Shown in pieces: positions 3,655 through 26,729 of a stretch of 26,729 nucleotides of DNA. The DNA is from a virus, in the IMG/VR virus record IMGVR_UViG_3300042154_000896, positions 1 through 26,729 of that record; one strand, given 5' to 3'. Under the pieces are notes generated by a model. That model had not been told where the DNA came from. It saw nothing but the letters and a program-made list of their open reading frames with translations, and made no database searches. Position 1 is the first letter of the stretch. The number at the start of each line of letters is the position of its first letter. A program made the translations under genes and the position numbers.

Positions 3655-4551
3655 TTAACCCTGATAGTCTTTGTCAGAGTTTTCACCCTGTCTAGTCCAA
3701 CTTGGGGCTAATCCATTCATTTCTAAAATATCATCTCTGATATGTTGTACTCGTTTTTCGGTATTCAATACTCTACAAAAAGAATTGGTTACCGCTGCGG
3801 TATAATATGCGAATGGATTAGCTGATTTTGCTTCATTAAAACGTAGTCCAACATAAGTTAGCTGTAAAATCGCTGCCCCTTTCATTTCATCATTATAAGT
3901 ATATCCACGCCAGTTAAACTTCATAGCATACTTTTCACATAACATAATGTACATTCTAGCAAGCTTATCAGTAAGATTGCCGTGATCTTTAGAAAACTCA
4001 CCGGTTTCCAAATCGCCTTTCCAATGTGACTTGCCCACACATATAAAACTGTTGTTTTCGTCTAGTTTAAAATGTTGGAATGGGGGAAAGTTTACTTTGA
4101 CATGTACCATGTCGTCTACTTCAGCTTTAGTTACTGGGTCTTCTAAATCTGCGAAGGCATCAGATAAATCAGTATCTTCAAAATCAAAAATATCTTTAGC
4201 AGTTTTCTTTACTACAGTTTTTCTAGGTTGTTTTATAGAAACAGGAACGTGGTCCCAAGTCATTACCCTAAAGATAAGATCGGTTGCGGGTATTGATTCA
4301 GGAAGAATTTTTTCTCCCAATTCATACGACAGTCTAGTAGCTCTAGTTTCTTTTGCTTGCTGAATTTGTTCAGGGTTGAAAGCATACTCTAAACTTGTTT
4401 CAATGCTTTCTGTAGGTTTATCAATAATAATGTCATATCTGTGATACTCTTTTTGAACGAACGAACAGTATGAATTTTTACTTTCATGAATCTGTTTTAA
4501 AATATCTTTGTTGTTTAAATAATTAACTTTTTTTACTGGTGTGATAATCAT
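3655..4551 (-). CDS. 55: gp55-like late-transcription sigma factor with a large internal insertion
   Basis: This is a phage sigma factor that directs host RNA polymerase to late promoters with a TATAAATA-like -10 box. The N-terminus has the YLNNKDIL motif (11-18), close to YVNNKELL in T4 gp55. Residues about 192-285 form the sigma region-2-like core: a helical stretch, NWRGYTYNDEM (213-223), then NPFAYYTAAVTNSF (245-258) and EKRVQ (265-269). Between them lie about 150 residues absent from T4 gp55 (185 aa), including a very acidic stretch IFDFEDTDLSDAFADLED (121-138). The C-terminus lacks the hydrophobic-acidic tail with which T4 gp55 binds the sliding clamp. AAGAGGT at 4561-4555 precedes the ATG. 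It is the first gene of the leftward unit and faces the late genes. GATAAATA boxes in this window support the role. The insertion's function is unknown. Confidence 0.85.
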   Translation of the reverse strand: MIITPVKKVNYLNNKDILKQIHESKNSYCSFVQKEYHRYDIIIDKPTESIETSLEYAFNPEQIQQAKETRATRLSYELGEKILPESIPATDLIFRVMTWDHVPVSIKQPRKTVVKKTAKDIFDFEDTDLSDAFADLEDPVTKAEVDDMVHVKVNFPPFQHFKLDENNSFICVGKSHWKGDLETGEFSKDHGNLTDKLARMYIMLCEKYAMKFNWRGYTYNDEMKGAAILQLTYVGLRFNEAKSANPFAYYTAAVTNSFCRVLNTEKRVQHIRDDILEMNGLAPSWTRQGENSDKDYQG

Positions 4552-4640: not shown

Positions 4641-4648
4641 GATAAATA
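4641..4648 (+). promoter_or_regulatory. T4-type late promoter (GATAAATA) for the rightward baseplate genes
   Basis: GATAAATA differs from the T4 late consensus TATAAATA in the first base only. It lies 32 bp before the ATG at 4681. With a start about 6-7 nt downstream, the leader is about 26 nt and includes AAAGGA (4666-4671), 9 nt before the ATG. No sigma70-like -35 box is evident, as expected for gp55-dependent promoters. This would drive the unit 4681-11700. Confidence 0.65.
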
Positions 4649-4655
4649 TAATTAC

Positions 4656-4663
4656 TATTTATC
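4656..4663 (-). promoter_or_regulatory. opposed late -10 box facing the late sigma factor gene
   Basis: The minus strand reads GATAAATA here. A transcript from it would start near 4650 and run about 100 nt, across the sigma70-like promoter, into the gp55-like gene. If active, the late sigma factor would boost its own synthesis and that of genes 47-46 late in infection. Position and sequence are seen directly; activity is inferred. Confidence 0.4.
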
Positions 4664-11000: not shown

Positions 11001-11243
11001 ACCCAATATGATGCTAGGATAGAACAATTAAGAGCAGAAATAAGTGTAATAGATGCAGAAATCGTTACAGTAACGCAACAGTCTCAAGAAGCATTTAATT
11101 TGCGACAAAACTCTTTACCAGGAGACGTTGAGTGGAGACAAAAGTTTAATGATTCTGAAACAAAACGAAGGGCATTAGTAACAGAACGAATTAGTAAAGA
11201 AGGAAATCTTAATATGTTGATTACTAATAGGGATAGGGGATAA
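8070..11243 (+). CDS. 5: gp5-like baseplate central spike, no lysozyme domain, with glycine-zipper segment
   Basis: The protein forms the needle that pierces the host envelope. Residues about 28-130 are the gp5 OB-fold: VFGIVKDNIDPNRSGRLKVY and DIGTVVICVFVNGDMNYGFYIG. Residues about 131-250 link directly to the spike; the lysozyme domain found in T4 gp5 is absent. Residues about 255-415 are a triple-beta-helix-type region of short alternating strands (GHQILMSDNGQTLMIL, VDIYATNSINLRTQGDLNL). Then come about 580 residues unlike T4 gp5: a Ser/Thr/Ala/Gln-rich low-complexity stretch, a glycine-zipper pair at 788-825, and a charged probable coiled coil from about 1000 to the end. At 1057 aa it is nearly twice T4 gp5 (575 aa). 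AAGG at 8060-8063 lies 6 nt before the ATG. The family call is firm for the first 415 residues; the C-terminal half is described only. Confidence 0.85.
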   Translation: MPQDYEKFRGPTKRSRPEAGGANTRTVPVFGIVKDNIDPNRSGRLKVYISDFGGLNPDDSSNWVSVGYMSSFFGRLTGEDAGSNPDNFGKYIQNPSSYGEWHAPPDIGTVVICVFVNGDMNYGFYIGAVPEPQTLQMVPAIGAEETVVPNEGEANSYGGATVLPVTNMNINNFSAAYSSDFIKTPKPIHSYAAAIMAQQGIIRDPIRGPITSSAQREPASRVGWGVSSPGRPIYEGGYDDQTIESNLSANPERLRVVARRGGHSIVLDDGDALGNDDLVRIRTARGHQILMSDNGQTLMILHSNGQSYIELGKEGTVDIYATNSINLRTQGDLNLHADNNVNIHAKKDMNFYAENMNFTTEKELNQRVGSDYKGFTVGTHTEKVTGAMSFESAGESSFASSSDTYINGAKINLNSGKASTKPEEVEAITITAHTDTLFDQEKGFTAAPGKLNSITSRAPAHAPWSNAGQGVDVQTDLSASSQLPSPPSLALGNATTAGISTGVNPVAAATAASVPNLSAASQNLDINTTGAVLGSIAQNTQNGPFRVAQQQGAAIVESSTGQSVLGVGAFGQTPDKLEKAGVLKPGSNRLINSLVQSGANTSQCMPDALFSGQTGAENLTNLTRNVTAQANVEVINLQKTQTELTNAGVLTGRESAGEVAGVVLAGSTTGVQNTIDAVKNTSSGESSGASVPNETIKQIGFGAAAARVASVVTGVFGGLTQSLAAMTGFSSQRSGVESSAFSSISQSFAKMKPNQPQNLKTINNTSAEKTQLLSNQNSQTNTNIVSTIVGGVAGAAIGNQVGGGSGRVVATAAGAVAGSLIGSNLTRKPRKSAVPSEASGVSNLPGGEKVLSMVKEGTDAAKNALPGTTQLKSAIDSQTTDKVNNLTTSTSGKFSSVKDAVTAKLSVAEKAQLASGLSSIATQGKQKIKLPTVATNTVDRSKITLSTKSLLGDNKIPEPDFTGEPNRRPSVNTSTASTQYDARIEQLRAEISVIDAEIVTVTQQSQEAFNLRQNSLPGDVEWRQKFNDSETKRRALVTERISKEGNLNMLITNRDRG
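10431..10544 (+). other. glycine-zipper two-helix segment encoded inside gp5
   Basis: Codons 788-825 of the gp5-like gene read as two glycine-spaced hydrophobic helices, GGVAGAAIGNQV and VVATAAGAVAGSLIGSNL, joined by GGGSGR and followed by the basic stretch TRKPRK. The spacing and linker are those of the glycine-zipper 2TM family seen in Gram-negative outer-membrane lipoproteins such as SlyB or the rickettsial 17-kDa antigen. Membrane insertion during envelope penetration is an inference. Confidence 0.6.
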
Positions 11244-11250
11244 ATACACT

Positions 11251-11700
11251 ATGCCAACATATATCGGATTTAGTACAATCAACGCAGACAAACCAAAAAC
11301 TACTAATGCTAAACCGGGCGGTGCTGCCGGTACCGGCGGCATAACCAATCCTATAGTATTTGGTAAAAAGTTTAGAATGGTAGACAGTCAACTAGTTATC
11401 CAAGACTTGATAAATGCTTTAAACATACAGTTAGGGCAAAAAGTAGGTCAACCGGGCTATGGCACGACAGTTTGGTCTTATGTTTTTGAACCTAATACTG
11501 TGGACACACAACGTCAAATTGAAAATGAAATAAGACGAGTAGCTAATCTGGATCCCAGAATACAGTTAAATTATGTACAAGTTTATCCTAGAGATAATGG
11601 TATATTAGTTGAAGTAGAAATGGCAGTTAGTCCGTTCAATGAAGCATCAGTGTTAAGTATGTTTTTTAATCAGGATACATCAGTAGTATCACCTATATAA
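11251..11700 (+). CDS. 25: baseplate wedge protein gp25
   Basis: gp25 (GPW/gp25 family) is the wedge protein that contacts the first sheath ring and helps trigger sheath assembly and contraction. The 149-aa product has a Gly/Ala-rich N-terminal arm (about 18-32), then the family core: VIQDLINALNIQLGQKVGQP (about 49-68), YGTTVWSYVFEP (about 70-81), a helix QIENEIRR (about 88-95) and a final strand pair ending ILVEVEMAVSP. T4 gp25 is 132 aa, so the size fits. The ATG follows the gp5 stop by 7 bp, with AGGGG at 11235-11239 as a somewhat distant ribosome-binding site. It closes the first late unit; a hairpin-rich 58-bp gap separates it from gp6. Confidence 0.92.
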   Translation: MPTYIGFSTINADKPKTTNAKPGGAAGTGGITNPIVFGKKFRMVDSQLVIQDLINALNIQLGQKVGQPGYGTTVWSYVFEPNTVDTQRQIENEIRRVANLDPRIQLNYVQVYPRDNGILVEVEMAVSPFNEASVLSMFFNQDTSVVSPI

Positions 11701-11703
11701 TCT

Positions 11704-11719
11704 AAAAACTCGGTTTTTT
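11704..11719 (+). terminator. weak hairpin with T-tract after gp25, possible partial terminator
   Basis: AAAAAC (11704-11709), loop TCG, GTTTTT (11713-11718) plus one more T form a 6-bp stem with a single G-C pair, starting 4 bases after the gp25 stop. It is too weak for a confident intrinsic terminator. Its 3' arm shares bases 11709-11715 with the larger hairpin, so the two folds exclude each other. Confidence 0.25.
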
Positions 11720-11751
11720 AATAATGATAAATATATCATATATTAACCGAG
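11709..11751 (+). promoter_or_regulatory. hairpin sequestering the gp6 ribosome-binding site
   Basis: CTCGGTT (11709-11715) pairs exactly with AACCGAG (11745-11751). Inside, AATA (11720-11723) pairs with TATT (11741-11744) and ATGATA (11724-11729) with TATCAT (11734-11739), closing a 4-base loop AATA. Unpaired bases are TTTT on the 5' side and one A on the 3' side. The 3' arm contains CGAG, the best Shine-Dalgarno-like sequence for the gp6 ATG at 11759, so folding would block gp6 translation. The pairing is seen in sequence; stability was not calculated. Confidence 0.55.
11726..11733 (+). promoter_or_regulatory. T4-type late promoter (GATAAATA) for gp6 and the giant protein
   Basis: The same GATAAATA box as at 4641, again preceded by AT, ends 25 bp before the gp6 ATG. 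The predicted start is about 11739-11740, after the 5' arm of the surrounding hairpin, so late mRNA would keep only the 3' arm and leave the gp6 ribosome-binding site open. Confidence 0.65.
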
Positions 11752-11758
11752 ACTTATT

Positions 11759-14700
11759 ATGGCAACCTCATCAAGACAAAGCGGACTTTTTGGAGTCAAC
11801 GACTGGAAACAAATATACCAGACATTTAGAGAAGCAGATTTTAGAAGTTTTGATTATGAAACTTTACGAAAAAGTTTTATAGACTATCTGCGTTTATATT
11901 ACCCTGAAACGTTCAATGATTATATTGAAAGTTCAGAGTTTATCGCTTTATTAGACGTTATGGCCTATATGGGTCAAGGTCTTGCTTTTAGAAACGATTT
12001 AAATTCTCGTGAAAACTTTATTGACACTGCTGAACGCAGAGACTCTGTAATAAAATTAGCTAACTTAGTAAGTTATACTCCTAAAAGAAACTTAGCCGCT
12101 CAAGGCTATTTAAAAGTTACTAGCATTCAAACTACTCAAAATTTACTTGATATAAATGGAGTAAATTTAAATAACACTCCTATACTTTGGAATGATCCTG
12201 CTAATCCAAATTGGTTAGAACAATTTAACACTATTATCAACGCTACATTAGTTGATACTCAAAGAATAGGTAGACCAGGCAATACAGCAGAATTGTTAGG
12301 GATAACTACTAACGAATATGCGATACGCATACCAGACAATAGCTTGCCAATAGCTCCATTTAACTCAACAGTAGATGGACAAAACATGAACTTTGAGTTA
12401 GTTTCTGTTACCACATTGGGTGAAGATTATGTTTATGAAATTCCACCTGCACCTAGTACTAGATTTAACATTCTATATCGTAACGACAAGTTAGGATTTG
12501 GTAGTCCAGAAACAGGGTTCTTTTTCTACTTTAAACAAGGCAACTTACAAAACTTTGATTTTAATTTAGAACAACAAATTTCAAATCAAACAGTAGATAT
12601 AGGAAGTATACAAGGTGTTAATAATACAGATACTTGGTTGTATCAGTTAAACAATAACAATGGTGATAGAACACTTTGGAGAAAAGTTGATAATGTTTAT
12701 GCTGATGCTTACTTACAAACAGAATTTTCTGATAAAAAAATATTTTCAGTAAACTCTAGATTTAACGATCAAGTTACATATATATTTGGCGATGGTGTAT
12801 TTTCAGAAGTTCCCGTAGGCGCTTTTAGAGCATATGTTCGTTCAAGTAACGCGCAAACTTATGTAATTGAACCTTCGGAAATGCAAGGAATAACAGTAGC
12901 GTTTACTTATGTAAACCGTCAGGGTAGAAATGAAACACTAACTGTTGGTTTAGAATTACCTTTAACTGTTTCTAACGCATTAGCTAGAGAACCATTAGCT
13001 GAAATCAAGCAACGCGCACCTACACGTTACTATACTCAAAACAGAATGGTAAATGGTGAAGACTATAACAACTTCCCTTATACTCTTTATAGTTCTATCA
13101 TAAAAAGTAAAGCTATTAATCGTAGTTCTGTGGGCATATCTAAAAACTTTGATTTGTTAGATCCTACAGGAAAGTATTCAAGCACTAATTCTTTTGGATC
13201 AGATGGCGCGCTTTATCAAAATGAGAATGATGGATTTTTAACTCTTACGATTAATAACATAAGTGATATTATTGCGTTCTTTAATAATACACTTGCTTCT
13301 GTTCTAGCAGATAATAAAGCTAATCAGTACTATATTCAGAATTATCCTAGATATAACGTTACCTCTGATATTGGTAACGGTACTGTATACTGGCAAACAA
13401 GTTCAGTAGAAGCTTCAAGCGAAACAGGTTATTTTTACAGCATATTAGGCAGTAACAACACTCCTGTTTCTTTAGGTACATTTTCTACTGACACTACCAA
13501 GTATGTAACCACTGGCGCGATATTAAAATTTGTTCCGCCGAATGGTTTCTATTTTGACTCAAACAATAGACTAGTAGCAGGTATCGCACCTAACGTTAGT
13601 CAAACTTATATTTGGGTAACCGTATTAAATGTAGTAGGAGATGGGAGCAATAACAATCAAGGTAGTTTCGCCAATGGTACCGGGCCAGTAACGTTAAACG
13701 GTTATGTGCCTTCTGGCGTAACATTAACACAAGTTATCCCTGTGTTTGACAATTCATTATCTGCTACACTAATTAATGAATGCGTGGAGCGTATGGAACT
13801 ACAACTACCGTTTACGCTAGTGTTCAATAACTCACTTACTATTAACGAAGAACGCTGGTCTATTCGTCCCATAACTGATACAAATTATTTTGTGAAATTT
13901 GAAAGCTTACCTAATGCAAACAGATACAATATTACTTACAAGTCATTAACTTATTACTTTGGCAGTGTAGCAGATACTAGATTTACTTTTTCAAGAAATC
14001 AATTAGTATATGATCCATTTACTGGAAAAGTAATTCAAGATTTTATCAATGTACTACAAGTAAATTCACAGCCAAATTCTTCACAAAGTTTAGGAAAAGA
14101 TATTAAAGTTAATATTTTAGGACAAACAGTTGAGTCAGATGGTTATGTAAATGATTTCCAAGTTGAAGTTGCGGCAACTGATGTTAATAATAGACAATTA
14201 ATACTTAACCCAGATTTCTTTGAACAAATTACTGGTTATCAGACAGATACAACAAATATAGGTATATATGTATTCTTTAGAGAAGTTCAAGATGCTATTA
14301 ACTTAACCAGAGAACTTATAGTCCCAACAACAGATGTTGTGTTTCAGTTTGCTACTAAAACACAAGTAGAAGTTGTAAAATATGATTATCCATTGGGACA
14401 GTTATTTTATGCTTATAGTGAAACTAACAGTGAAGGGTTGAACAATGTGTTCTATAAAACAGTACAAGATCAAACAGTAACTACGCCTTCTTATATTCTT
14501 GTAGTACAGCCTGAGTATTTTGTAAGACCCGGCAGACAAGGATTGTCTTTCCAGTACAGGCATAATTCTAACAATAGCACAAGAATAGACCCAGCAACTA
14601 CTAATATTATTGATCTTTATGTAGTTACTCAAGCATACTATACTGCTTATCAAAACTGGATTCAAGATTCAACTAATACAATACCTATGCCAGATATGCC

Positions 14701-15157
14701 AACGATCAATCAACTAAATCAAGAGTACAGCCAAGTTCAAGATTTCAAAATGTTGTCGGATTCAGTAGTGTTAAATAGTGTTGTATTCAAACCGTTATTT
14801 GGTCCTAAAGCAGATTCTGCGTTAAGAGCTACTATAAAGGTGATTAAACAAAGCAGAACAAATGCTAGTGACAGCGAAATTAGAAGTGCAGTGCTAACAG
14901 CAATGAACGAATATTTCAATGTTAATAATTGGAACTTTGGAGATACGTTCTTTTTCTCAGAACTAAGTGCATATCTACATGCTGAATGCGGAGAGTTAAT
15001 TAGCTCTGCTGTGTTAGTTCCAAATGATCCTAGCAAACGCTTTGGTGATTTGTATGAAATAAAATGCATGCCTTACGAGATTTTCGTAAACGCAGCGGTA
15101 GCAAATGATGTATTGGTTGTAGCGGCGTTAACGCCCGCAGAGTTACAAATTAGGTAG
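11759..15157 (+). CDS. 6: baseplate wedge protein gp6
   Basis: gp6 dimers form the inner ring that links the six wedges around the hub and hold the baseplate together during its switch. The 1132-aa product has the recognisable N-terminus of aquatic T4-like gp6: NDWKQIYQTFREADF (about 15-29), the helix ALLDVMAYMGQGLAFRNDLN and LANLVSYTPKRN (about 96-107). The C-terminus carries IIDLYVVTQAYYTAYQNWI, VFKPLFGPKADS, NWNFGDTFFFSEL and VLVPNDPSKRFGDL, matching the conserved gp6 C-terminal domain. T4 gp6 is 660 aa; the surplus is beta-rich sequence in the middle, roughly residues 480-700. The ribosome-binding site is weak (CGAG at 11748-11751) and lies in a hairpin. It ends 8 bp before the next gene, so both form one late unit. 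Confidence 0.9.
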   Translation: MATSSRQSGLFGVNDWKQIYQTFREADFRSFDYETLRKSFIDYLRLYYPETFNDYIESSEFIALLDVMAYMGQGLAFRNDLNSRENFIDTAERRDSVIKLANLVSYTPKRNLAAQGYLKVTSIQTTQNLLDINGVNLNNTPILWNDPANPNWLEQFNTIINATLVDTQRIGRPGNTAELLGITTNEYAIRIPDNSLPIAPFNSTVDGQNMNFELVSVTTLGEDYVYEIPPAPSTRFNILYRNDKLGFGSPETGFFFYFKQGNLQNFDFNLEQQISNQTVDIGSIQGVNNTDTWLYQLNNNNGDRTLWRKVDNVYADAYLQTEFSDKKIFSVNSRFNDQVTYIFGDGVFSEVPVGAFRAYVRSSNAQTYVIEPSEMQGITVAFTYVNRQGRNETLTVGLELPLTVSNALAREPLAEIKQRAPTRYYTQNRMVNGEDYNNFPYTLYSSIIKSKAINRSSVGISKNFDLLDPTGKYSSTNSFGSDGALYQNENDGFLTLTINNISDIIAFFNNTLASVLADNKANQYYIQNYPRYNVTSDIGNGTVYWQTSSVEASSETGYFYSILGSNNTPVSLGTFSTDTTKYVTTGAILKFVPPNGFYFDSNNRLVAGIAPNVSQTYIWVTVLNVVGDGSNNNQGSFANGTGPVTLNGYVPSGVTLTQVIPVFDNSLSATLINECVERMELQLPFTLVFNNSLTINEERWSIRPITDTNYFVKFESLPNANRYNITYKSLTYYFGSVADTRFTFSRNQLVYDPFTGKVIQDFINVLQVNSQPNSSQSLGKDIKVNILGQTVESDGYVNDFQVEVAATDVNNRQLILNPDFFEQITGYQTDTTNIGIYVFFREVQDAINLTRELIVPTTDVVFQFATKTQVEVVKYDYPLGQLFYAYSETNSEGLNNVFYKTVQDQTVTTPSYILVVQPEYFVRPGRQGLSFQYRHNSNNSTRIDPATTNIIDLYVVTQAYYTAYQNWIQDSTNTIPMPDMPTINQLNQEYSQVQDFKMLSDSVVLNSVVFKPLFGPKADSALRATIKVIKQSRTNASDSEIRSAVLTAMNEYFNVNNWNFGDTFFFSELSAYLHAECGELISSAVLVPNDPSKRFGDLYEIKCMPYEIFVNAAVANDVLVVAALTPAELQIR

Positions 15158-15165
15158 GTTAGTAA

Positions 15166-18100
15166 ATGACAACAAGAGTTAGAACTTTAAATTTTCTTCC
15201 AGAAATTTTTCAGACAAAAACAAACACTGAGTTTTTGTCAGCAACACTAGACCAACTAGTTAATCCCCCTATCATTAAAAAGATACAGGGATATGTTGGT
15301 AGTAAAGTTGGATATGGTGTTAATGCTAATGACTATTACGTAACTGAACCTACTAAAACACGAACAGACTATCAACTTGATCCTGGTGTAGTTTTCACAA
15401 AAACTAATCAAACAACTGCTCAAGATTTTATCAGCTATCCAGGTATGCTAGACGCACTAGAATTGCAAGGCGGTATAACTAATAATAACTCAAGACTATT
15501 TGAAAGTCAAATTTATTCTTGGGATTCATTTACTGATTTAGATAAAGTTGTAAACTATAACCAGTACTACTGGATACCAACTGGTCTTCCTGCTGTTACT
15601 GTATCATCCGCGTTAGTTTATTCAACCAATGAGTACATTGTTACCGATTTAGCAAACGGGTATAACATTAGAGAAGCAGGATCATCAGCCGGCAGCACCA
15701 ACCCTACTATTACATTATTGCGTGGCGGTGTTTATCGTTTTATTGTAAATCAACCGTCACAGTTTTGGATTCAAGGTGAGCCTGGAGTATCAGGCTTTAG
15801 TCCTATTCAGCCTAACTTACCTGTAAGAGATGTATATGGTGTAAGCAACAACGGAGCAACTCAAGGTGCAGTTACGTTTACTGTGCCTAACAAAGACGCA
15901 CAAAACGAATTCATATTCCCGGGTAATAACCAAGTTGATTTAGTAACATCAACCCCATATGGTTCAATAAGTGGTTTGTTACTAAGTCAAATAACAGCTA
16001 ACGGCGGCATTGATGGTGTTACCGCAATTGAAGGGTTGTCTGTATTGTTTTACAACACAGGTATTGTAAATGAGCAAGCTAATTTAGGTGCATACGATTT
16101 ACAACAGTTTGATCAAGATCAACCAGGATTATCTTTATCATTTGATACTAATAATTTTATAACACAAGTTAATCAGTATTTTTATACAGTTACATACATA
16201 GATAATCCTAATGATCCTTTAGATCCTTTTGTAGTATTATTACCAGATACACTGATTCCTATTGAAGAAAAGATAACAGCTACTTTTGGTACTCAGTGGA
16301 TAAACCGACAATTTTATAGAAATACTCTAGGTGTTGTATCTTTAGTACCTTATATTACTGCACCTCTTAATCAGCTTTATTACCAAGACGGTACTTCTGC
16401 TAACAAAGTAGGTTTGATTAAAATAGTTGAAAGTAATATTACCAACACAATAAATGTAGAAGTTGACATATTAGGTAAAAAGAATTACACTTCAACCAAC
16501 GGCGTTGTATTTACTAATGGATTAAAAGTTGAATTTGACGGCGATGTTATCCCTTCAAGTTATTTGTCAGGTGAGTATTACGTAGAAGGTGTGGGTTCAG
16601 CAATAGAATTAATACCAGTAGAAACATTAGTATCACCTGAAGATTTTACTACCGGCACGTTTATACCATTTGATACAACACCGTTTGATGCTTCAAACTT
16701 TGATAGTGATTTGTTTGTACCTGCTGAACTAGATTATATTACTATTGCTAGAAACGCAATAAACAAAAACGCTTGGTCTAGAAGCAATCGTTGGTTTCAT
16801 ACTCAAGTAATTAATCAAACTGCGGTTTATAACAACAACCCTAACATAACAACTGAATATGCTACCGCAGAAAACAAAGCAAAAAGACCTATTATAGAAT
16901 TTTATCCTAACTTAAAACTGTTTAACTCAGGTACCGTAGGAAAACAACCAGTAGACTTTATTGATCAAAGATCAACAGATGCGCTATCACAAATACCAGG
17001 ATTAGATAACTACTTTCCTGACGTAGAAGTTTATACACAGAATACAGCAAACATCACAGGTGTAACAGGAACTTCTACTACTATTACAGTTCCAACTCAA
17101 GATATCGTAGGTACTTTTCAAGTAGGCCAATATGTTAGTGATTATTTGAACATACTACCTATTAACACACAAATTACTGCTATCACTACAGCAAGTACTA
17201 ACACCGTATTAACAGTTTCTTGGGCAGTTAGTCAATCAGTTGGTTCGGTTTCTAATATAGCTATTATTGCTACTGATACTACTGTTAATAACTATGAAGT
17301 ATTTGATGGCGCAAGAATTATATTTGCTGCTGATACAGATTTAAACGTAAAAAACAAAATTTACGTAGTTAGTCTTTCACAATTAACTATTGGTTCTGAC
17401 CCGGTTATTACATTAACCGAAGCACTAGACGGTAATTGTGAAGAAAACGATCAAACAGTAATCTTACGAGGATATAACAATCAAGGTAATAGTTTTTACT
17501 TTGATGGTACTGAATGGATTTTAGCACAAGAAAAAGTTACTGTAAATCAAGCTCCTTTATTTGATGTATTTGATGAAAACGGAATCAGTTTTAGCGATCC
17601 AGTAAGTTATCCAGGTACTTCATTTACTGGATGTACATTATTTTCATATGGGCTTGGTGTAGGAATTGATGATCCTATTTTAGGATTTCCTATAAGATAC
17701 AGCGCGATAGACAACGTAGGTGATATTAGTTTTGATGTTTCACTTAACACCGATACTTTTGATTATGTTACTGGAACTACTCCTATAACTCAAAAAGTTA
17801 ATACTGGTTATGTGTTTAACTTTGATGACAGAACTGAATATACTAGAGAGTTAGGATGGCAAACAGCGATTGCCCCTAGCGAACAGTATCAAGTTTTCCA
17901 GTTTAACTATGAAACACCGAGTAGTACATCTGTTACTGCCGGGTCATTTGTGCTAGGGGTAACATACACTATTACAACGACAGGAACAACCGATTTTACC
18001 CTAATAGGAGCCTCGGATAGCAATCCAGGTACTGTGTTTACTGCTACCGGAGCTGGAACAGGTACAGGTACAGCGAAGGAGACCGTAACATTTGTTTGTG

Positions 18101-21100
18101 ACATTGCGGCATTACCTGAACAAGAAGGAACTTGGACTAGTATACAAGTATTTGTAAACAATGCTTGTCAGTGTGTTAGTCAGTATGAATATACTATAGG
18201 CACAAACACTACTACTATTGAGTTACTAGATCCTAGCAAACTAGAAAACAATACACCAATTGAAGTATTAATTTTAAGCAATCAAATTAGTAATCAAGCT
18301 TACTACACAATACCAGTTAACTTAGCTAACAACCCATTTAACCAAGATTTACAAACAGTAAACGTTGGTGATGTTAGACAGCAGTACAGAGACATTTATA
18401 TAAATGCTCCAGGTATTTTAGGTCCTGTATTTGGTTCTAACAACTACAGAGACTTAGGTAACTTAGTACCTTACGGCACAAAAATAATTCAAAACAGTGC
18501 GTCACTTGTATTGCCAGGAACATTCTTACGCAAAACAGAACACAACTTGTTTGATGCTTTAAAGTTTAACAGTAATGAGTATGTAAAATTTAAAAACTTG
18601 TTAGTAGACACTATTAACAATGCTGAATATGTTCAACAATATACTCCGTCTGAAATTTTAGATCAAGCAATGGATATTATAACCGCAGCTAAAAGTCAAT
18701 CACAAGCTTTCTTTTGGAGCGACATGATCCCTGCTAAAGCACCTCTAAGAAGCAACACGTATACGTTTGCTAATAACTTAGATACAAGCATTTATCCATT
18801 AACTACCACATATAACTTTGCTTCTGCTAACTACAATGGGGTTTTAGTTTACTTAACAAGAGTCATCAGCGGCGTAACTGTACAAAAACAATTAACTAAC
18901 GTACAAGATTATACTATAAGTCAAGATGCTCCTTCGTTAACTGTTACGTTAGACTTATTAGCAGGTGATCGTATTACTGTTAAAGAGTATAATCAAACTT
19001 ATGGCAGTTATGTACCAAACACTCCAACTAAATTAGGATTGTACCCTGCTTCTAAACCTGAAGTAGTGTTAGACACTGCTTACACACAACCAACTTACTT
19101 TATTAAGGGACATGATGGTTCTTATAACAAACTATATGGTTCTTACAATGTTAATTTAGGTGTGTTAGACGATTTTAGAGATCAAGGTTTATTAGAATTT
19201 GAACTAAGAGTTTATAACAATCTTAAATTAAGTAGTACAGTACCTATTCAAGCTTATGAAGTATTGCCTGGATTCTTTAGAGATACCGATTACACATACA
19301 GTGAATTCTTACAAATGTATAGTGAAAGTTTCTTGAACTGGGTAGGTCAAAATAGACTAGATTATAAGACTCAAGTATTTTCTAAAGTAAATGAATTTAC
19401 TTACAATTATACTAATGCGGCTAACAAACTAACTAATACACCTATTGAGCAAGGTTATTGGAGAGGAGTGTATCAGTACTTTTACGACACTACTACTCCT
19501 AACGCTACACCATGGCAAATGTTAGGATTTACTGATCAACCTTCTTGGTGGATTACACGTTATGGTCCTGCTCCATATACCAGTGATAACTTGATTCTTT
19601 GGAATGATTTAGAACAAGGTATTATTTGGAATAATGGAGTACCTATTACAGTTGAAGCAGTTGCTCGTCCTGGCTTAACAGATATCATTCCAGTAGACAG
19701 TGCAGGTAACTTAATTTCTCCGTTTGTATCAATCGTAGGTAATTATAACGCTAACACATTCCAACGAGATTGGAAAGTGGGTGACGATGCTCCTGTTGAA
19801 CTAAGCTATCGTAGAAGCTCAGCTTATCCATTTGATTTGATGAGAATATTTGCGTTAATGAAACCTGCTAACTTCTTTAACTTGGGAGTAGATTTAGACA
19901 ACTACAAATATAACGTTGAATTTAACCAGTATCTTGTAAATAACAGAAGTCATTTAGTAATCAGTGACGTTGAAATTTATGGTTCTGGAACAGCTAAAAC
20001 AAGTTATATTAACTGGATAGTTGATTACGAAAAACAACTAGGTATAAACGCTACACAAAATATTACTGATTTGTTAGATAACTTAGATGTAAGATTAGTA
20101 TATCGTTTGGCTGGTTACAGTGATAAAAATTTATTAAAGTTTTACGTAGAAAAAGGAACACCAAACAGCAGAAATGCTTCATTGTTAATTCCAGATGAAA
20201 GCTATTCGTTGCTTCTTTATGATAACCAACCATTTGATCGTATTGTATACTCAGGTGTTGTAGTACAAATTACTCAAAATGGTTATGCTGTGTTTGGTAA
20301 TTCACAAACTACCGCATATTTCAAAATACTAAAGCCAATAAACAATGGTAAGTATAATAACATTGAAGTAGAAAATGAAAGAGTACGAGTTGCTACTGAT
20401 TATTCTACACAAGAAGTAATAGTTCCTTATGGTACTAGATTTTTTAGTCTACAAGAAGTAGCACAATTCTTATCAAGTTACGGTGCGTACTTAACTTCAC
20501 AAGGTATGATTTTCAATGATATCATAGGTGGAATAGAAGTTACTTGGGATCAAATGGTTAGTGAGTTCTTATACTGGTCTCAAACTGGTTGGGAAGTGGG
20601 AAGTATTATTTTATTAAACCCTTCTGCTCAACAATTAAAAATAGACAAAGAAAGTTCTATTGTACAGCCATTAACAGTTCAAAATACTAACTTTGTATTA
20701 AATCAAAACTTGTATCCAATACAAGCAAAAGATTTGAGTGTGTTTAGAAACGGTACTGAGTTTAGTGTAACCGCACTTAACCAAGGCGACACTGTTTCTT
20801 ATGGACAATTTAATTTAAGCAACTTTGAACATGCTATTGTATTTGACAATGAAACACTATTCAACGATACAATTTACAACTTAATTACTGGATTAAGACA
20901 AAGCAGAATTTTTGTACGAGGTACAAAAACTGCTGAATGGAATGGTACAATAAATGCTTCAGGGTTTATATTAAACCAAGACAATATTCAAGAATGGTCA
21001 AGAGCAGTTAAGTACACCAAGGGATCAATCGTACTTTATAAAAACAAATACTGGACTGCACTAAAAGTTATTGAACCAAGTAATATATTCAATGAAAGAG

Positions 21101-24100
21101 ATTGGAAAGAAACTGATTACGATGAAATACAAAAAGGATTATTACCTAACTCATCAACTAGATCATATGAAAGTGCTTTGTACTATGATACCAACAAAGC
21201 TAACTTAGAAAATGATGCTGACTTATTAGGGTTCTCATTGATTGGTTACAGACCAAGAGATTATTTGGCATTAGTAGATTTAACTGACATTACTCAAATC
21301 AATGTTTATCAAAACTTAATCAAAAACAAAGGTACTCGCAACGCTGTTACCGCATTCAAAGGAGCTACTTTACCACAAGGTGGTATTGAGTATGATGTAT
21401 ATGAAAACTGGGCAATTAAAAGTGGTGAATATGGTGGCTTGTTAAATAAAAACTTTGTTGAATTTAAAGTTAACGAAACCAACTTAACAGGCAATCCTGC
21501 CATCGTTAGTTTAACTAATGGTGTATACACTCCCGGTTCTCAGCAAGAAGTACCTATATATAGTTTGTTCAACTATGCTAGACCAATAGACACACCTGAC
21601 ATTTTAAGTACAATTAATCCTTCTACACCTTCACAATTATATCCTGATGCTGGATATGTAAACTTTGATGATGTTAGAATGTCGTCTTACTTTTATTCAG
21701 GATTGCCGTTAGCTAGGGATAAAAACAACGAACTAACACCAATCAATGATTTTTATGTAAGAGACTACGCTTGGTTAGCAAACTACTTAGAAGATTGGGA
21801 CGTATTAACTTGGAAGCCGGTTGGAAGAGTAATCGCAGTAAGAAGCAATTTAAATAGCACTGCTACTGTAACGTTTGCTCAGCCGCACGGTTTATCAAGA
21901 TTGCAACCATTGTCTATTATAAATTATGCAACAAACGTAGACGGATATTATGTAGTTGCTAATATAGTTAACTTGAACGAAGTTATCATTAACTTGCCTG
22001 TAGCTACTGAAATAGTAAGCACTGGACAAGGCATTGGATTAACTTTTCAGTCACAACGAGTAGATAAGCCTTCTGATATTAATGAACTACCTTTACTTGA
22101 TACTGAGTTTGTTAAGAACACAGTGTGGGTAGATGAAAGTACTGACGGAAGTTGGGCAGTTTACAGAAAGAGTTTGAACTATCAGTATAATAATGAAGTA
22201 ACAAAAACTAACAGCACTACATTTGGTAGTGCAGTTGCATACACTGATCAAGCAGGATACTTAATAAGTGATGCTGGCTTAGGTGAAGTATACCGTTATG
22301 CAAAAAATTCTACTAACAATTACCTTATTGTAGAAACTTTAACTGGTGGAACTTCATTTGGATCACAGATCGTTTATGCAGGAAATACTTATATAATTTC
22401 TAAACCAACTAGTACTCCAATAGTTCGTGTTTACATAATTAATGATAGTCAACTATCAGATGACTTTTTATTATGTCAAACTATTGCGGCTCCAGGTGGA
22501 GTAAGTAATTGGGGCAGCGAACTAGCTATTTCCGGAGATCAAAACTGGCTTTATATTTCTGATACTGCTAACAACAAAGTACACACTTATCGCAAGCAGA
22601 ATATTTTGTTAAATGCTGGTTTCTTTGTCAACGGTGAAACTTATGTTATCAATGAGTTAGGTACAACTAACTTTACTTTAATTGGCGCAATTGAAAACAA
22701 AGTAGGTATTACATTTGTTGCTACTGGGGCAGGTACAGGCACAGGTAAAGCGACTCAAATTACTTATAAAGCATCTACAATAATTGATGGGCAAGCATTA
22801 AGCTTAGTGACATCAAATGATAATTTCAGTAAAGCAATTACTACAGACTATTACAGTGATGTATTAGTAGTAGGCGCACCTGATAAAGATTATGATGGTA
22901 ATATTGCTAACTGGGGAAGTGCTTTTGCATTTTCTAGAGCAGTACAAAATATAGAAGTTCAATCTAATACGTTTATTGGTTTGCCGCAAACTTTCCCGTT
23001 AGCTTGGGCACCAGTAACACACGATGCAAGAACAGGTAGTGCGGTATCAAGCAATTACATTACAGCTAACGCTTCAATGACTGGTTTTGCAGTAAATGAT
23101 CCTGTTATGTTCTCAGGTACAACTTTTGGTAGTACTGGCATTCAGCCTAATATAGTTTATTATATTCAGGATATTTCAGGTAGCACATTTACTATTAAAC
23201 AATCGCGTTCTATCTCAACGCCTATTACATTGATTAACGATTCTGGATTATCATTTAGTATTTTTGTACAAATAAATCCACTTTATGTATTCAAAAACGG
23301 TGTGCTTGTACAAGATAACAACTATGGTGTTGTGGGAACAAACACTTTTGTGTATTCAAATAACTTAGTAGCCGGTGATATTATCACAGTAAGCGATAGT
23401 AAGTTTACTTACGCGCAAACTTTTACATCAAATTATAATAATAGAGTAGGCACTCAGTTTGGTTATTCACTTGATACTATTCAATCAGGTTCTGAAATAT
23501 TAATAGGATCTCCTTTTGAAATTAGTGACGAAAATCAAGAAGGTGCAGCATATAGATTTACAAATGCAGGAGCAAAATTTGGTTTAGTAACTGGTGTAAA
23601 TGCTTGTACTGTTACTGCTGTTCGTCCTTTATTAATAAACGGATATTTGATTAATATACCTGTAGGAAACGCAACAGTTGTAGCTAACGCCATTAATGAT
23701 GCTAATAAGGCTAACATTATTACTAACATTCAAGCAGCAGCTACTGTAGATAATAAACTAATGATTCAAGTTATTAATACTGATCTAACTCAGGTTAATC
23801 AGAAACTAATAATAACAGCGGTTGATACCACTACATTAGTAGAATTAGGTATTCAAGTATATACAAACACACAAGTTATTACTTGTCCACACGTATTTGG
23901 TGCTACTCAGTTTGGTTCAGTTGTTCAATTCAACGAGCAAGATTCTGTAGTAATTAGTGCTCCTGTAGCTACTCGTTATGAAGGAACTACATTTGACTTT
24001 GTAGACGATGAGTTTTATCAAAATGATACTGTATTTGATAACAATGCTACACAGTTTATAGATACTGCACCAAACGCTGGCGCAGTTTATATGTTTGATT

Positions 24101-26729
24101 ACATTTCAAACTATAACGAGAACTTAACTAATATTGGTGAGTTTGTATACGCACAGTCTGTAAACAGCAAAGACAGAGAATATGGTTTCAATCCACTTTA
24201 TGGCACTGCTTTAGATTTTAACAGCAATGTAGTAATGATAGGAACACCTAACTTCTTACCAGAGTCTGTTGACGGTCAGGTAACTGTTTATGAAAACGAA
24301 ACAGGTATTAAAGACTGGTCAATATACAGAAATTCTGCGCCAGTAGTTGATATTGAAAGCATACAAAATGCTCAGTTATTCAGTGCTGAAACTAACAATA
24401 CACTAATCAATCTTGATTACATTGATCCATTACAAGGTAAATTGTTAGGTTCAGTAAGACAGAATATAGATTATGTTTCTTCAATTGACCCTGCTAACTA
24501 TAACAGTCAAGAAATTATAGATGCACAATCAGGATTATTATGGGGAGCAGAAAAAGTTGGAAAAGTATGGTTTGATACTGTTAACGTTCGTTTTGTAAAC
24601 TATCATCAAAATGACTTGGTGTACAATAGCAAATATTGGGGAACAGTATTCCCGGGCAGTGATGTAGCAGTGTATACTTGGATAACAAGTAATGTTCCTC
24701 CTAGTAACTATCAAGGTCCAGGAACACCAAAAGATGTTTCCGACTACACGGTATCTAGTGTACTAGATGCTTCTAATGTAGCAGTTCCAATTTATTACTT
24801 TTGGGTTAGAAACTCTAACATTATCTTTAGAAAAGAAGGCAAAACTCTTTCTGACACTATTATAGAATCTTATATTAGTAACCCTAAGAACTCAGGTATT
24901 GCTTTCTTTGCTCCTTTAAGACAAAATTCATTTGCGATTTATAACAGTACTGAATACTTTAACGCAAATGACACAGTGTTCCACATAGGATATGCTAACG
25001 GAACAAGTAACGATGAAGCACACGTAGAGTATACATTAATTAAAGAAGATTTTGCTGATGACTTTTTACCAGGCTTACCTAGACTAGGTATCAATGCAGA
25101 ACCTGAAGGTCTATATGACAGAATGCTAGACAGCTTAGCTGGTGTTGATGAGTTGGGAAGTGTAGTACCTAATATATTCTTACCAAAAGCTGTACAATCA
25201 GGTGTGTTAGCTAGACCAAGACAAAGTTTCTTCTACAACCGTTTCTTGGCGCTAAAGAATTATTTAACTTATGCTAATGAAATATTAGTTCAATATCCTA
25301 TCAGTGAAATTAGACCTGATATATCTTTCTTGTTTGCTGAAGGTGAGTTTTATAATACACCTGACTACTGGCAGTATATTAACTGGTGGGCACCAGGCTT
25401 TGATAACAATACTAGATCGGCGCTGCAAGTTCCACTATATGCCGACTTATCCACTTTAACAGTAGCAACAGATACTATCGTAACTGTGGAAAATAATGGT
25501 AGTGGTAAGTTTGAAGTGTACATATACAACGGTAGTAACATCTGGAGTAGAATAGGTTTAGAAAATGGAACTATTGAATTTAACTTAGCTCTTTGGGATT
25601 ATGCTGAAGCAAGACTTGGATTTGGTGACAATTTCTTTGACGCTAGCCCATATGACGAATATCCAAGTGAAGAAACTAGATATATCGTTCGTGCGTTAAA
25701 TGAACAAATTTATATTGAAGAACTATTAACTTTTAGAAACAAAAGTTTGATCTTGTTGTTTGAATACATTCAAAGTGAATCTACTGAGTCTCAAAATTAC
25801 TTACCATGGTTGAATAAAACGTCATTAGTTGATGTATCACATACCATAAGAGAATTGTTACCTATAGAAGTATTTCAAACTGATAATCAAGAATTTTTAG
25901 AAGGGTATATTAACGAAGTTAAACCATATCATGTGGTGATAAAAGAATTTGTATTCAAATACACAGGTACTGATACTTATGATGGTAATATAACTGACTT
26001 TGACTTGCCTGCTCAGTATGATAAATCAGTAAATCAGTTTATTACTCCTTCATTAGTATATACTAATCCAAGCGGTAGTAACGAATATACAGATACTGAT
26101 GATATTTGGCAAACTGCACCTTACACTCAGTGGTTTCAAAATAAAGGTGTAAGTTTAACCGGTCAGCCTAATTATGAAATAACATTATTAGATTCCTACA
26201 TGACTTTAGGATCTTCATTTATGTTTGTAGACAATGCTCAAGGCTTGCCTATTAACGGAGTTATCACAATAGGTAACGAACAAATAGGATATTCTTCAGT
26301 AGATAGAGCATTAAACTTGGTTCAGGGTTTGAGCCGAGGATTAAACGGAACTTCTATAACAGTACACTTCCCAGGAGAAAGAATATTTATTGACTTACCT
26401 GAAGTTGTAGTGTTAAACGGAGGAAAAGGATACACTGAACCTCCAAGAGTAACCGCGTATGTAGATTTAGAACTGTATCCTGCTCCTACTACAGAAGCAG
26501 TATTTGAAGCAGTAATGAGTTTAGATTCAGTTTTAAGTATTAACGTAATAGATCCTGGTCAGGGATATATGGTTCTTCCTGAAATTAGAATAGATCCTTC
26601 AGTAGTAATATCATTTACTAATGCTGATATTAACTCAACATTACACACAATAAGAGTTTATGGTCCTAACTTAGCTACCGGAGACTTAGTACTGTTTAAA
26701 CAAAGTGATGCTGGGGTCGGTCGTTTAGC
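15166..26729 (+). CDS. giant virion structural protein, baseplate-associated, in gp7 position (3' end beyond window)
   Basis: The frame opens at ATG 15166, 6 nt after AGGT, and runs without a stop for 3,854 codons to the window edge. The N-terminus (TRVRTLNFLPEIF, then YSWDSFTDLDKVVNYNQYYW at about 124-143) is a pattern I recognise from giant structural proteins of aquatic T4-like phages. Visible regions: a beta-sandwich, possibly cupredoxin-like (TLLRGGVYRFIVN, about 178-190); NKNAWSRSNRWFH (about 534-546) and RPIIEFYPNLKLFN; two copies of a 45-aa module (926-970, 2485-2529); a probable seven-bladed FG-GAP propeller (about 2346-3055); KVGKVWFDTVNVRF; INEVKPYHVVIKEF (about 3582-3595); and GGKGYTEPP repeats near the edge. 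No enzyme motif or membrane span was seen. Its place after gp6 matches gp7, the wedge initiator of T4 (1032 aa), but it is more than 3.7 times longer. The gp7 role is inferred from order only. Confidence 0.7.
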   Translation, partial: MTTRVRTLNFLPEIFQTKTNTEFLSATLDQLVNPPIIKKIQGYVGSKVGYGVNANDYYVTEPTKTRTDYQLDPGVVFTKTNQTTAQDFISYPGMLDALELQGGITNNNSRLFESQIYSWDSFTDLDKVVNYNQYYWIPTGLPAVTVSSALVYSTNEYIVTDLANGYNIREAGSSAGSTNPTITLLRGGVYRFIVNQPSQFWIQGEPGVSGFSPIQPNLPVRDVYGVSNNGATQGAVTFTVPNKDAQNEFIFPGNNQVDLVTSTPYGSISGLLLSQITANGGIDGVTAIEGLSVLFYNTGIVNEQANLGAYDLQQFDQDQPGLSLSFDTNNFITQVNQYFYTVTYIDNPNDPLDPFVVLLPDTLIPIEEKITATFGTQWINRQFYRNTLGVVSLVPYITAPLNQLYYQDGTSANKVGLIKIVESNITNTINVEVDILGKKNYTSTNGVVFTNGLKVEFDGDVIPSSYLSGEYYVEGVGSAIELIPVETLVSPEDFTTGTFIPFDTTPFDASNFDSDLFVPAELDYITIARNAINKNAWSRSNRWFHTQVINQTAVYNNNPNITTEYATAENKAKRPIIEFYPNLKLFNSGTVGKQPVDFIDQRSTDALSQIPGLDNYFPDVEVYTQNTANITGVTGTSTTITVPTQDIVGTFQVGQYVSDYLNILPINTQITAITTASTNTVLTVSWAVSQSVGSVSNIAIIATDTTVNNYEVFDGARIIFAADTDLNVKNKIYVVSLSQLTIGSDPVITLTEALDGNCEENDQTVILRGYNNQGNSFYFDGTEWILAQEKVTVNQAPLFDVFDENGISFSDPVSYPGTSFTGCTLFSYGLGVGIDDPILGFPIRYSAIDNVGDISFDVSLNTDTFDYVTGTTPITQKVNTGYVFNFDDRTEYTRELGWQTAIAPSEQYQVFQFNYETPSSTSVTAGSFVLGVTYTITTTGTTDFTLIGASDSNPGTVFTATGAGTGTGTAKETVTFVCDIAALPEQEGTWTSIQVFVNNACQCVSQYEYTIGTNTTTIELLDPSKLENNTPIEVLILSNQISNQAYYTIPVNLANNPFNQDLQTVNVGDVRQQYRDIYINAPGILGPVFGSNNYRDLGNLVPYGTKIIQNSASLVLPGTFLRKTEHNLFDALKFNSNEYVKFKNLLVDTINNAEYVQQYTPSEILDQAMDIITAAKSQSQAFFWSDMIPAKAPLRSNTYTFANNLDTSIYPLTTTYNFASANYNGVLVYLTRVISGVTVQKQLTNVQDYTISQDAPSLTVTLDLLAGDRITVKEYNQTYGSYVPNTPTKLGLYPASKPEVVLDTAYTQPTYFIKGHDGSYNKLYGSYNVNLGVLDDFRDQGLLEFELRVYNNLKLSSTVPIQAYEVLPGFFRDTDYTYSEFLQMYSESFLNWVGQNRLDYKTQVFSKVNEFTYNYTNAANKLTNTPIEQGYWRGVYQYFYDTTTPNATPWQMLGFTDQPSWWITRYGPAPYTSDNLILWNDLEQGIIWNNGVPITVEAVARPGLTDIIPVDSAGNLISPFVSIVGNYNANTFQRDWKVGDDAPVELSYRRSSAYPFDLMRIFALMKPANFFNLGVDLDNYKYNVEFNQYLVNNRSHLVISDVEIYGSGTAKTSYINWIVDYEKQLGINATQNITDLLDNLDVRLVYRLAGYSDKNLLKFYVEKGTPNSRNASLLIPDESYSLLLYDNQPFDRIVYSGVVVQITQNGYAVFGNSQTTAYFKILKPINNGKYNNIEVENERVRVATDYSTQEVIVPYGTRFFSLQEVAQFLSSYGAYLTSQGMIFNDIIGGIEVTWDQMVSEFLYWSQTGWEVGSIILLNPSAQQLKIDKESSIVQPLTVQNTNFVLNQNLYPIQAKDLSVFRNGTEFSVTALNQGDTVSYGQFNLSNFEHAIVFDNETLFNDTIYNLITGLRQSRIFVRGTKTAEWNGTINASGFILNQDNIQEWSRAVKYTKGSIVLYKNKYWTALKVIEPSNIFNERDWKETDYDEIQKGLLPNSSTRSYESALYYDTNKANLENDADLLGFSLIGYRPRDYLALVDLTDITQINVYQNLIKNKGTRNAVTAFKGATLPQGGIEYDVYENWAIKSGEYGGLLNKNFVEFKVNETNLTGNPAIVSLTNGVYTPGSQQEVPIYSLFNYARPIDTPDILSTINPSTPSQLYPDAGYVNFDDVRMSSYFYSGLPLARDKNNELTPINDFYVRDYAWLANYLEDWDVLTWKPVGRVIAVRSNLNSTATVTFAQPHGLSRLQPLSIINYATNVDGYYVVANIVNLNEVIINLPVATEIVSTGQGIGLTFQSQRVDKPSDINELPLLDTEFVKNTVWVDESTDGSWAVYRKSLNYQYNNEVTKTNSTTFGSAVAYTDQAGYLISDAGLGEVYRYAKNSTNNYLIVETLTGGTSFGSQIVYAGNTYIISKPTSTPIVRVYIINDSQLSDDFLLCQTIAAPGGVSNWGSELAISGDQNWLYISDTANNKVHTYRKQNILLNAGFFVNGETYVINELGTTNFTLIGAIENKVGITFVATGAGTGTGKATQITYKASTIIDGQALSLVTSNDNFSKAITTDYYSDVLVVGAPDKDYDGNIANWGSAFAFSRAVQNIEVQSNTFIGLPQTFPLAWAPVTHDARTGSAVSSNYITANASMTGFAVNDPVMFSGTTFGSTGIQPNIVYYIQDISGSTFTIKQSRSISTPITLINDSGLSFSIFVQINPLYVFKNGVLVQDNNYGVVGTNTFVYSNNLVAGDIITVSDSKFTYAQTFTSNYNNRVGTQFGYSLDTIQSGSEILIGSPFEISDENQEGAAYRFTNAGAKFGLVTGVNACTVTAVRPLLINGYLINIPVGNATVVANAINDANKANIITNIQAAATVDNKLMIQVINTDLTQVNQKLIITAVDTTTLVELGIQVYTNTQVITCPHVFGATQFGSVVQFNEQDSVVISAPVATRYEGTTFDFVDDEFYQNDTVFDNNATQFIDTAPNAGAVYMFDYISNYNENLTNIGEFVYAQSVNSKDREYGFNPLYGTALDFNSNVVMIGTPNFLPESVDGQVTVYENETGIKDWSIYRNSAPVVDIESIQNAQLFSAETNNTLINLDYIDPLQGKLLGSVRQNIDYVSSIDPANYNSQEIIDAQSGLLWGAEKVGKVWFDTVNVRFVNYHQNDLVYNSKYWGTVFPGSDVAVYTWITSNVPPSNYQGPGTPKDVSDYTVSSVLDASNVAVPIYYFWVRNSNIIFRKEGKTLSDTIIESYISNPKNSGIAFFAPLRQNSFAIYNSTEYFNANDTVFHIGYANGTSNDEAHVEYTLIKEDFADDFLPGLPRLGINAEPEGLYDRMLDSLAGVDELGSVVPNIFLPKAVQSGVLARPRQSFFYNRFLALKNYLTYANEILVQYPISEIRPDISFLFAEGEFYNTPDYWQYINWWAPGFDNNTRSALQVPLYADLSTLTVATDTIVTVENNGSGKFEVYIYNGSNIWSRIGLENGTIEFNLALWDYAEARLGFGDNFFDASPYDEYPSEETRYIVRALNEQIYIEELLTFRNKSLILLFEYIQSESTESQNYLPWLNKTSLVDVSHTIRELLPIEVFQTDNQEFLEGYINEVKPYHVVIKEFVFKYTGTDTYDGNITDFDLPAQYDKSVNQFITPSLVYTNPSGSNEYTDTDDIWQTAPYTQWFQNKGVSLTGQPNYEITLLDSYMTLGSSFMFVDNAQGLPINGVITIGNEQIGYSSVDRALNLVQGLSRGLNGTSITVHFPGERIFIDLPEVVVLNGGKGYTEPPRVTAYVDLELYPAPTTEAVFEAVMSLDSVLSINVIDPGQGYMVLPEIRIDPSVVISFTNADINSTLHTIRVYGPNLATGDLVLFKQSDAGVGRL
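17941..18075 (+). repeat. 45-aa Gly/Thr module, copy 1 (inside the giant protein)
   Basis: Residues 926-970 run from GSFVLGVTYTI through GTTDFTLIGA to TATGAGTGTGTA. The block aligns without gaps to copy 2 at 28 of 45 positions. By hand count it is about 48% G+C, whereas sampled flanking 60-base lines are 25-37%, and it uses codons such as GGG, GTG, ACG and TCG that are scarce around it. This suggests recent arrival. The module type recurs in phage structural proteins. Confidence 0.75.
22201..24300 (+). other. probable seven-bladed FG-GAP beta-propeller region of the giant protein
   Basis: Seven units of the form F/W-G-S, then a hydrophobic strand, then GxP/SxP and a closing aromatic strand begin near residues 2353, 2400, 2448, 2554, 2765, 2916 and 3012. 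Examples are TFGSAVAY, NWGSELAI, QFGSVVQF and YGTALDF, with VLVVGAP, ILIGSP, VVISAP and VVMIGTP as second strands. Unit 4 carries DKDYDG (2573-2578), the calcium-loop D-x-D-x-D-G of FG-GAP/integrin alpha repeats. Extra modules sit between units 3-4, 4-5 and 5-6. A binding or adhesion role is inferred. Confidence 0.6.
22618..22752 (+). repeat. 45-aa Gly/Thr module, copy 2 (between propeller units 3 and 4)
   Basis: Residues 2485-2529 run from GFFVNGETYVI through GTTNFTLIGA to VATGAGTGTGKA, aligning without gaps to copy 1 about 1,560 residues upstream. G+C is about 39% by hand count, nearer to its surroundings than copy 1, so it looks older or better adapted. It interrupts the propeller after the third unit. 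Confidence 0.75.

Follow-up and report, generated by a model that had tools for sequence, protein, structure and literature searches.

The window, that is, the whole 26,729-nt stretch of DNA that was analysed (positions 1 to 26,729 of the IMG/VR virus record IMGVR_UViG_3300042154_000896), carries the gene set of a T4-type phage: a gp55-like late sigma factor, SbcC/D-like genes, a hub/lysozyme-like gp5, gp25, gp6, and a giant ORF. The gp55-like late sigma factor, encoded at 3655-4551, matches the late sigma PHROG 12791 with an E-value of 2.4e-74. The gp6 protein shares about 32-35% identity with its counterparts in cultured jumbo phages (CBB, GAP32, 121Q, and Phosso among them), and DNA similarity to isolates is seen with PA5oct-like phages only, over part of gp6. 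Our subject is the 58-nt gap between gp25 and gp6, within and around which the following features lie:

11251-11700, plus strand: gp25-like baseplate wedge gene, an ORF with matches to baseplate wedge PHROGs
11698-11700, plus strand: gp25 stop codon, 8 nt before the 5' arm; gp25 is the presumed source of read-through RNA
11704-11719, plus strand: A-run/T-run mini-hairpin overlapping the 5' arm, a weak competitor (-0.4 kcal/mol)
11709-11715, plus strand: 5' arm, CTCGGTT, present in read-through RNA only
11726-11733, plus strand: T4-type late promoter box, GATAAATA, between the arms, its promoter role predicted from the motif
11739 (+/- 2), plus strand: expected late transcript start, about 6 nt after the box, placed from T4 late promoter geometry
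11745-11751, plus strand: 3' arm, AACCGAG, holding the Shine-Dalgarno (SD)-like GAG (11749-11751), 7 nt before the gp6 ATG
11759-15157, plus strand: gp6-like baseplate wedge gene, the putatively regulated gene, with its ATG at 11759 (PHROG 10646, E 2.5e-258)
15166-26727, plus strand: giant ORF of at least 3854 aa, 8 nt behind gp6, with no late box of its own and open at the window end

The giant ORF is probably co-transcribed with gp6 on the same late transcript. Giant structural genes occupy the same position behind gp6 in cultured jumbo phages.

A preliminary description of this DNA had proposed that CTCGGTT and AACCGAG pair exactly across the gap, with a late box inside the hairpin and SD-like letters in its 3' arm. 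The coordinates prove exact, and both box and GAG lie within the structure as described. A folding calculation of the kind that it recommended gives an 81-nt RNA from this region a minimum free energy of -13.3 kcal/mol, compared with -6.1 +/- 2.1 kcal/mol in dinucleotide shuffles (z -3.4, with 0 of 200 shuffles as good), and the predicted structure pairs 11709-11714 with 11746-11751, and 11719-11729 with 11734-11739 and 11741-11745. The T-tract hairpin that had been suggested as a competitor does exist and overlaps the 5' arm, but its energy, computed on a relative whose gap sequence equals that of the window (L006), makes it very weak. An A4 run is kept in 92% and a T4 run in 93% of the relatives' gaps, but the mini-hairpin is barely better than shuffled sequence and is rejected as a conserved attenuator or terminator. 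A pattern scan of the gp25-gp6 gap for a plus-strand intrinsic terminator (a GC-containing stem followed by a U-run) found none, and no Rfam covariance model scored above its gathering score in the window, the one snoRNA match (11832-11896, E 0.42, 19.2 bits vs 60) being at chance level.

Three scans of viral contigs yielded 231 loci in which the box could be read, with 100 distinct gp25-gp6 gaps, the relatives being uncultured contigs. A NATAAATA box, nearly always GATAAATA, is found in the gap at 231 of 233 loci (the exceptions are L162 and L163), and in nearly all relatives GATAAATA sits between the two arms. ATAAATA has been predicted as a late promoter motif upstream of structural genes in CBB (PMC5259590), and the late motif of T4-like cyanophages is NATAAATA (PMC2984593). 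The exact 7-mer arms of the window are confined to its closest relatives (L001, the L002 group, and L006). Compensatory changes in the two arms had been named in the preliminary description as a check on the pairing, and most relatives that lose CTCGGTT/AACCGAG indeed flank the box with a different matched pair: CTTTTTTGAT/ATCAAGAGAG (L014, L017), CTTTTTTAGGTAT/ATACTTAAAAGAG (L007-L010), GTGTTTTC/GAGAACAC (L016), GTTGTTTTC/GAGAACAAC (L252), GTGGTGTTTTC/GAGAATACCAC (L228), GTTTTTCC/GGGAAAAAC (L038 and others), and CCCTG/CAGGG (L071). At the position of the window's SD-like GAG, relatives have a purine-rich AGAG, AGGGA, or AGGA.

Because arm registers differ between lineages, the pairing was assessed by an arm-swap test, in which each 26-nt segment preceding the box was hybridised in silico with its own and with all other box-to-ATG segments. 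Across the 100 distinct gaps, own partners average -8.5 kcal/mol and permuted ones -5.7 +/- 0.2 kcal/mol (z -13.6, 0 of 20,000), and the effect persists after dereplication to 25 gaps (z -6.4) and to 10 gaps (z -4.8). Reversing either segment abolishes it (z about +0.9), and neighbouring coding segments show no effect (z about 0). On the gp6 tree, phylogenetically independent pairs with changed arms favour their own arms by 16 to 3 (sign test, p 0.002), with a smaller excess of 19 to 9 (p 0.04) among closest pairs when arm changes are not required. Column-wise covariation inside a single gap-free class is weak, and thus the evidence comes mainly from turnover between lineages. In addition, the helices are richer in G.U relative to A.C than permuted pairs, as expected for plus-strand RNA. 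Most relatives carry such a predicted lock on the SD, but about a quarter of the distinct gaps are without a good one: arm pairing is weaker than -6 kcal/mol in 27% of them, for example in L026, L058, L060, and L247.

T4 late transcripts start about 6 nt past the promoter box, and this geometry was used to place the expected start at 11739. Access to the gp6 SD was then modelled as the free energy needed to unpair the stretch from 14 to 6 nt ahead of the ATG, with late RNA starting, by the same T4 analogy, 6 nt after the box. For the window, opening is predicted to cost 8.4 kcal/mol in read-through RNA and 0.8 kcal/mol in late RNA, a result matched by 1% of shuffled upstream segments; this supports the initial claim that read-through RNA would block gp6 whereas RNA begun at the late box would be open. 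Over the 100 gaps the modelled mean cost is 5.65 kcal/mol for read-through RNA and 0.82 kcal/mol for late-box RNA; the difference exceeds 2 kcal/mol in 84 gaps and 5 kcal/mol in 47, the latter compared with 4.4 per 100 when the upstream part is shuffled.

The computations establish that the arms pair, that they co-vary across lineages, that the box keeps its place between them, and that SD opening differs in the model; together these results make it likely, in our view, that the gp25-gp6 gap acts as a promoter-of-origin translational lock. RNA reading through from gp25 would hold both arms, fold, and hide the gp6 SD. RNA begun at the embedded late box, the presumed start site (about 11739), would lack the 5' arm and expose an open SD in a leader of about 20 nt. 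If translation follows this difference in access, gp6 would be made mainly from its own gp55-dependent late transcripts, at any level of transcription from gp25.

This mechanism is already known from T4 e, soc, and 49 and from I-TevI; here, in a large family of T4-type jumbo phages, the layout is found in lineage after lineage, with pairing letters that change together. In T4 e (also soc and gene 49), a hairpin covers the SD in long read-through transcripts, whereas late transcripts, whose T4-type promoter is located in the DNA of the 5' strand, are made without this strand and are translated (PMC3014915). The promoter-in-hairpin layout is also found in hairpin-controlled homing endonucleases, namely I-TevI, I-TevII, I-TevIII, segB, and mobE of phage Aeh1 (PMC2988022). 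As in e, soc, and 49, a helix before gp6 is predicted to cover the SD in upstream-initiated RNA, and the late sigma factor gp55 is encoded; the box between the arms is a putative late promoter. The gp6 leader departs from those genes in its target, a baseplate wedge gene, in upstream RNA that is itself probably late, in sequences of no relation to theirs, and in arms that turn over from one lineage to the next. Moreover, the T4 lock was shown by experiment, whereas the gp6 lock is proposed from comparison and modelling. The T4 lysozyme and homing-endonuclease leaders are textbook cases resting on few sequences, and the roughly 100 distinct natural versions of one leader described here are comparative evidence that the T4 logic extends to a structural gene of uncultured jumbo phages. 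The T4 baseplate genes 25 and 26 are likewise named as being under the control of RNA structure at their ribosome-binding sites (PMC2988022), with a conserved stem in gene 25 (PMC3014915); their likeness to gp6 is that of a structured initiation region.

The probable timing of the upstream RNA would set gp6 further apart from these cases. In T4 e and I-TevI the lock design silences early or middle read-through RNA (PMC3014915; PMC2988022). The gp6 layout is like that of homing-endonuclease leaders, but homing-endonuclease genes sit inside early or middle units and gp6 in a late structural unit. Upstream plus-strand genes of the window carry late-type boxes at 4641 (a divergent promoter) and 11239 (gp25), and no early promoter was seen upstream of gp6 among the window's plus-strand genes; read-through RNA is therefore probably late too. 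Since the plus-strand genes start at the late-type promoter at 4641 and a further box belongs to gp25 itself, timing does not suggest itself as the purpose of the lock. The analogy with T4 e and soc drawn in the preliminary description is supported for the SD-lock design but probably does not extend to a switch from early to late. If read-through RNA is plentiful, a more likely role for the lock is to make gp6 dosage independent of upstream transcription than to tell early from late.

To place gp6 among other late promoters, two relatives of about 260 kb were surveyed, G001 (the contig of L004) and G002 (the contig of L021), with gene starts called mechanically. Together they contain 39 GATAAATA boxes 14-45 nt before a plausible start codon, and nine of these late promoters have the SD-lock layout (difference >5 kcal/mol), compared with 2.0 expected and a maximum of 5 in 50 shuffles. 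The lock is thus a selective feature, not general to late promoters. In both genomes gp6 is among the nine. An HNH-type homing-endonuclease-like gene of G002 also has a lock, in further likeness to the homing-endonuclease leaders, and its counterpart in G001 shows the same layout in a weaker form that is not significant (16% of shuffles). Others precede a 185-aa gene with weak baseplate matches, a 583-aa virion protein, and 355-aa and 568-aa proteins without a PHROG match. Counting pairing upstream of the box only misses promoters whose 5' arm is the box itself. The nine also include two related-looking 53/54-aa genes (L085:5048-5242 and L101:982-1177, minus strands), where the 5' arm consists of the late-box end plus CTC and AAATACTC pairs over the SD with GGGTATTT or GAGTATTT; these appear to be a second form of the same device. 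We tentatively suggest that in this family of T4-type jumbo phages SD locks with embedded late promoters recur on about one-fifth of late genes and separate structural-gene dosage by promoter of origin within a wholly late programme, their arms turning over while the architecture stays, and that the gp6 lock may in addition be sensitive to gp25 translation, through the competing A/T hairpin and the nearby gp25 stop.

Translational coupling has also been considered in its own right: ribosomes ending at the gp25 stop would disturb the base of the stem, such that read-through RNA yields gp6 only while gp25 is being translated. In the relatives, a median of 9 nt separates the gp25 stop from the 5' arm, and the edge of a terminating ribosome's footprint reaches about this far. 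However, so short a distance may merely reflect compact genes, and coupling needs neither a conserved late box between the arms nor an open late RNA. We regard it as unlikely, and as compatible with the lock if it is an added layer. A somewhat less probable alternative explains the conservation of the T-rich 5' arm and the A-run by a role as promoter DNA, namely an upstream AT element, and takes the SD pairing for a by-product of composition. The A4 and T4 runs are indeed kept in more than 90% of gaps, T-rich and purine-rich segments pair readily, and duplex tests that compare single gaps with shuffles often fail to reach significance (for the 5' segment of the window the figure is 16%). Nevertheless, the matching is specific in the arm swaps, the reversal controls, and the tree pairs, and A/T runs occur at only 2 of the same phages' 39 late boxes, one being gp6 itself, so that they are rejected as a general promoter element.

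It is very doubtful that the same arms serve as an intrinsic terminator of antisense RNA. The window's minus strand does read CTCGGTT...AACCGAG followed by TTTTT (the plus-strand A-run), and minus-strand pairing co-varies too (z -11.3), but the co-variation is stronger and G.U-biased on the plus strand, which disfavours this reading; in most relatives the stem and T-run are 3-5 nt apart and the stems AU-rich, and no minus-strand gene runs across gp6 and needs termination. A stem for processing or 3'-end protection of gp25 RNA, independent of the SD, would fit the stable stem found just after gp25 in most lineages, but it is hardly credible, since the 3' arm covers or abuts the SD in successive lineages despite changed sequence, which is not required of a processing stem.

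The promoter-of-origin lock may not be the only means of setting gp6 apart from gp25. CBB, GAP32, XbC2, and pEa_SNUABM_47 have the same gene order and a GATAAATA box before gp6, but differ from the window in a strong GC-rich intrinsic terminator right ahead of that box, by which gp6 would be insulated transcriptionally instead. The comparative evidence suggests that promoter-of-origin control of translation contributes to baseplate protein levels here, with a terminator in its stead in other jumbo phages. PA5oct (gap of 14 nt without a box), Atu_ph07 (9 nt), and Phosso (overlapping genes) are uninformative on the lock because the gap leaves no room for it. In the cultured jumbo phages CBB, GAP32, RaK2, XbC2, pEa_SNUABM_47, and 121Q (L264, L266, L267, L270, L271, and L265), gp25 is followed by a strong intrinsic terminator with a NATAAATA late box right behind it, and both are found again between gp6 and the giant gene. 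In 121Q, a gene for a group I intron-associated protein is inserted in the gp25-gp6 gap.

Two further promoters of the window have unusual geometry. At gp25, GATAAATA occupies 11239-11246 and the ATG lies at 11251; in about two-thirds of some 85 distinct relatives, the window included, a NATAAATA box starts 12-13 nt before the gp25 ATG. At this spacing a late transcript would start at or next to the ATG, giving a leaderless gp25 mRNA. Most of the other gp25 lineages either place the box at -23 to -27, an AGGATA-type SD lying in between, or have none within the 70 nt examined. At 4641-4663, the SD-opening model shows no lock on the plus-strand side. The late-type boxes there are divergent, GATAAATA-taattac-TATTTATC, and make up a perfect 8-bp inverted repeat that lies between the minus-strand gp55-like gene and the first virion gene on the plus strand; expression of the late sigma factor may thus itself depend on a late promoter.
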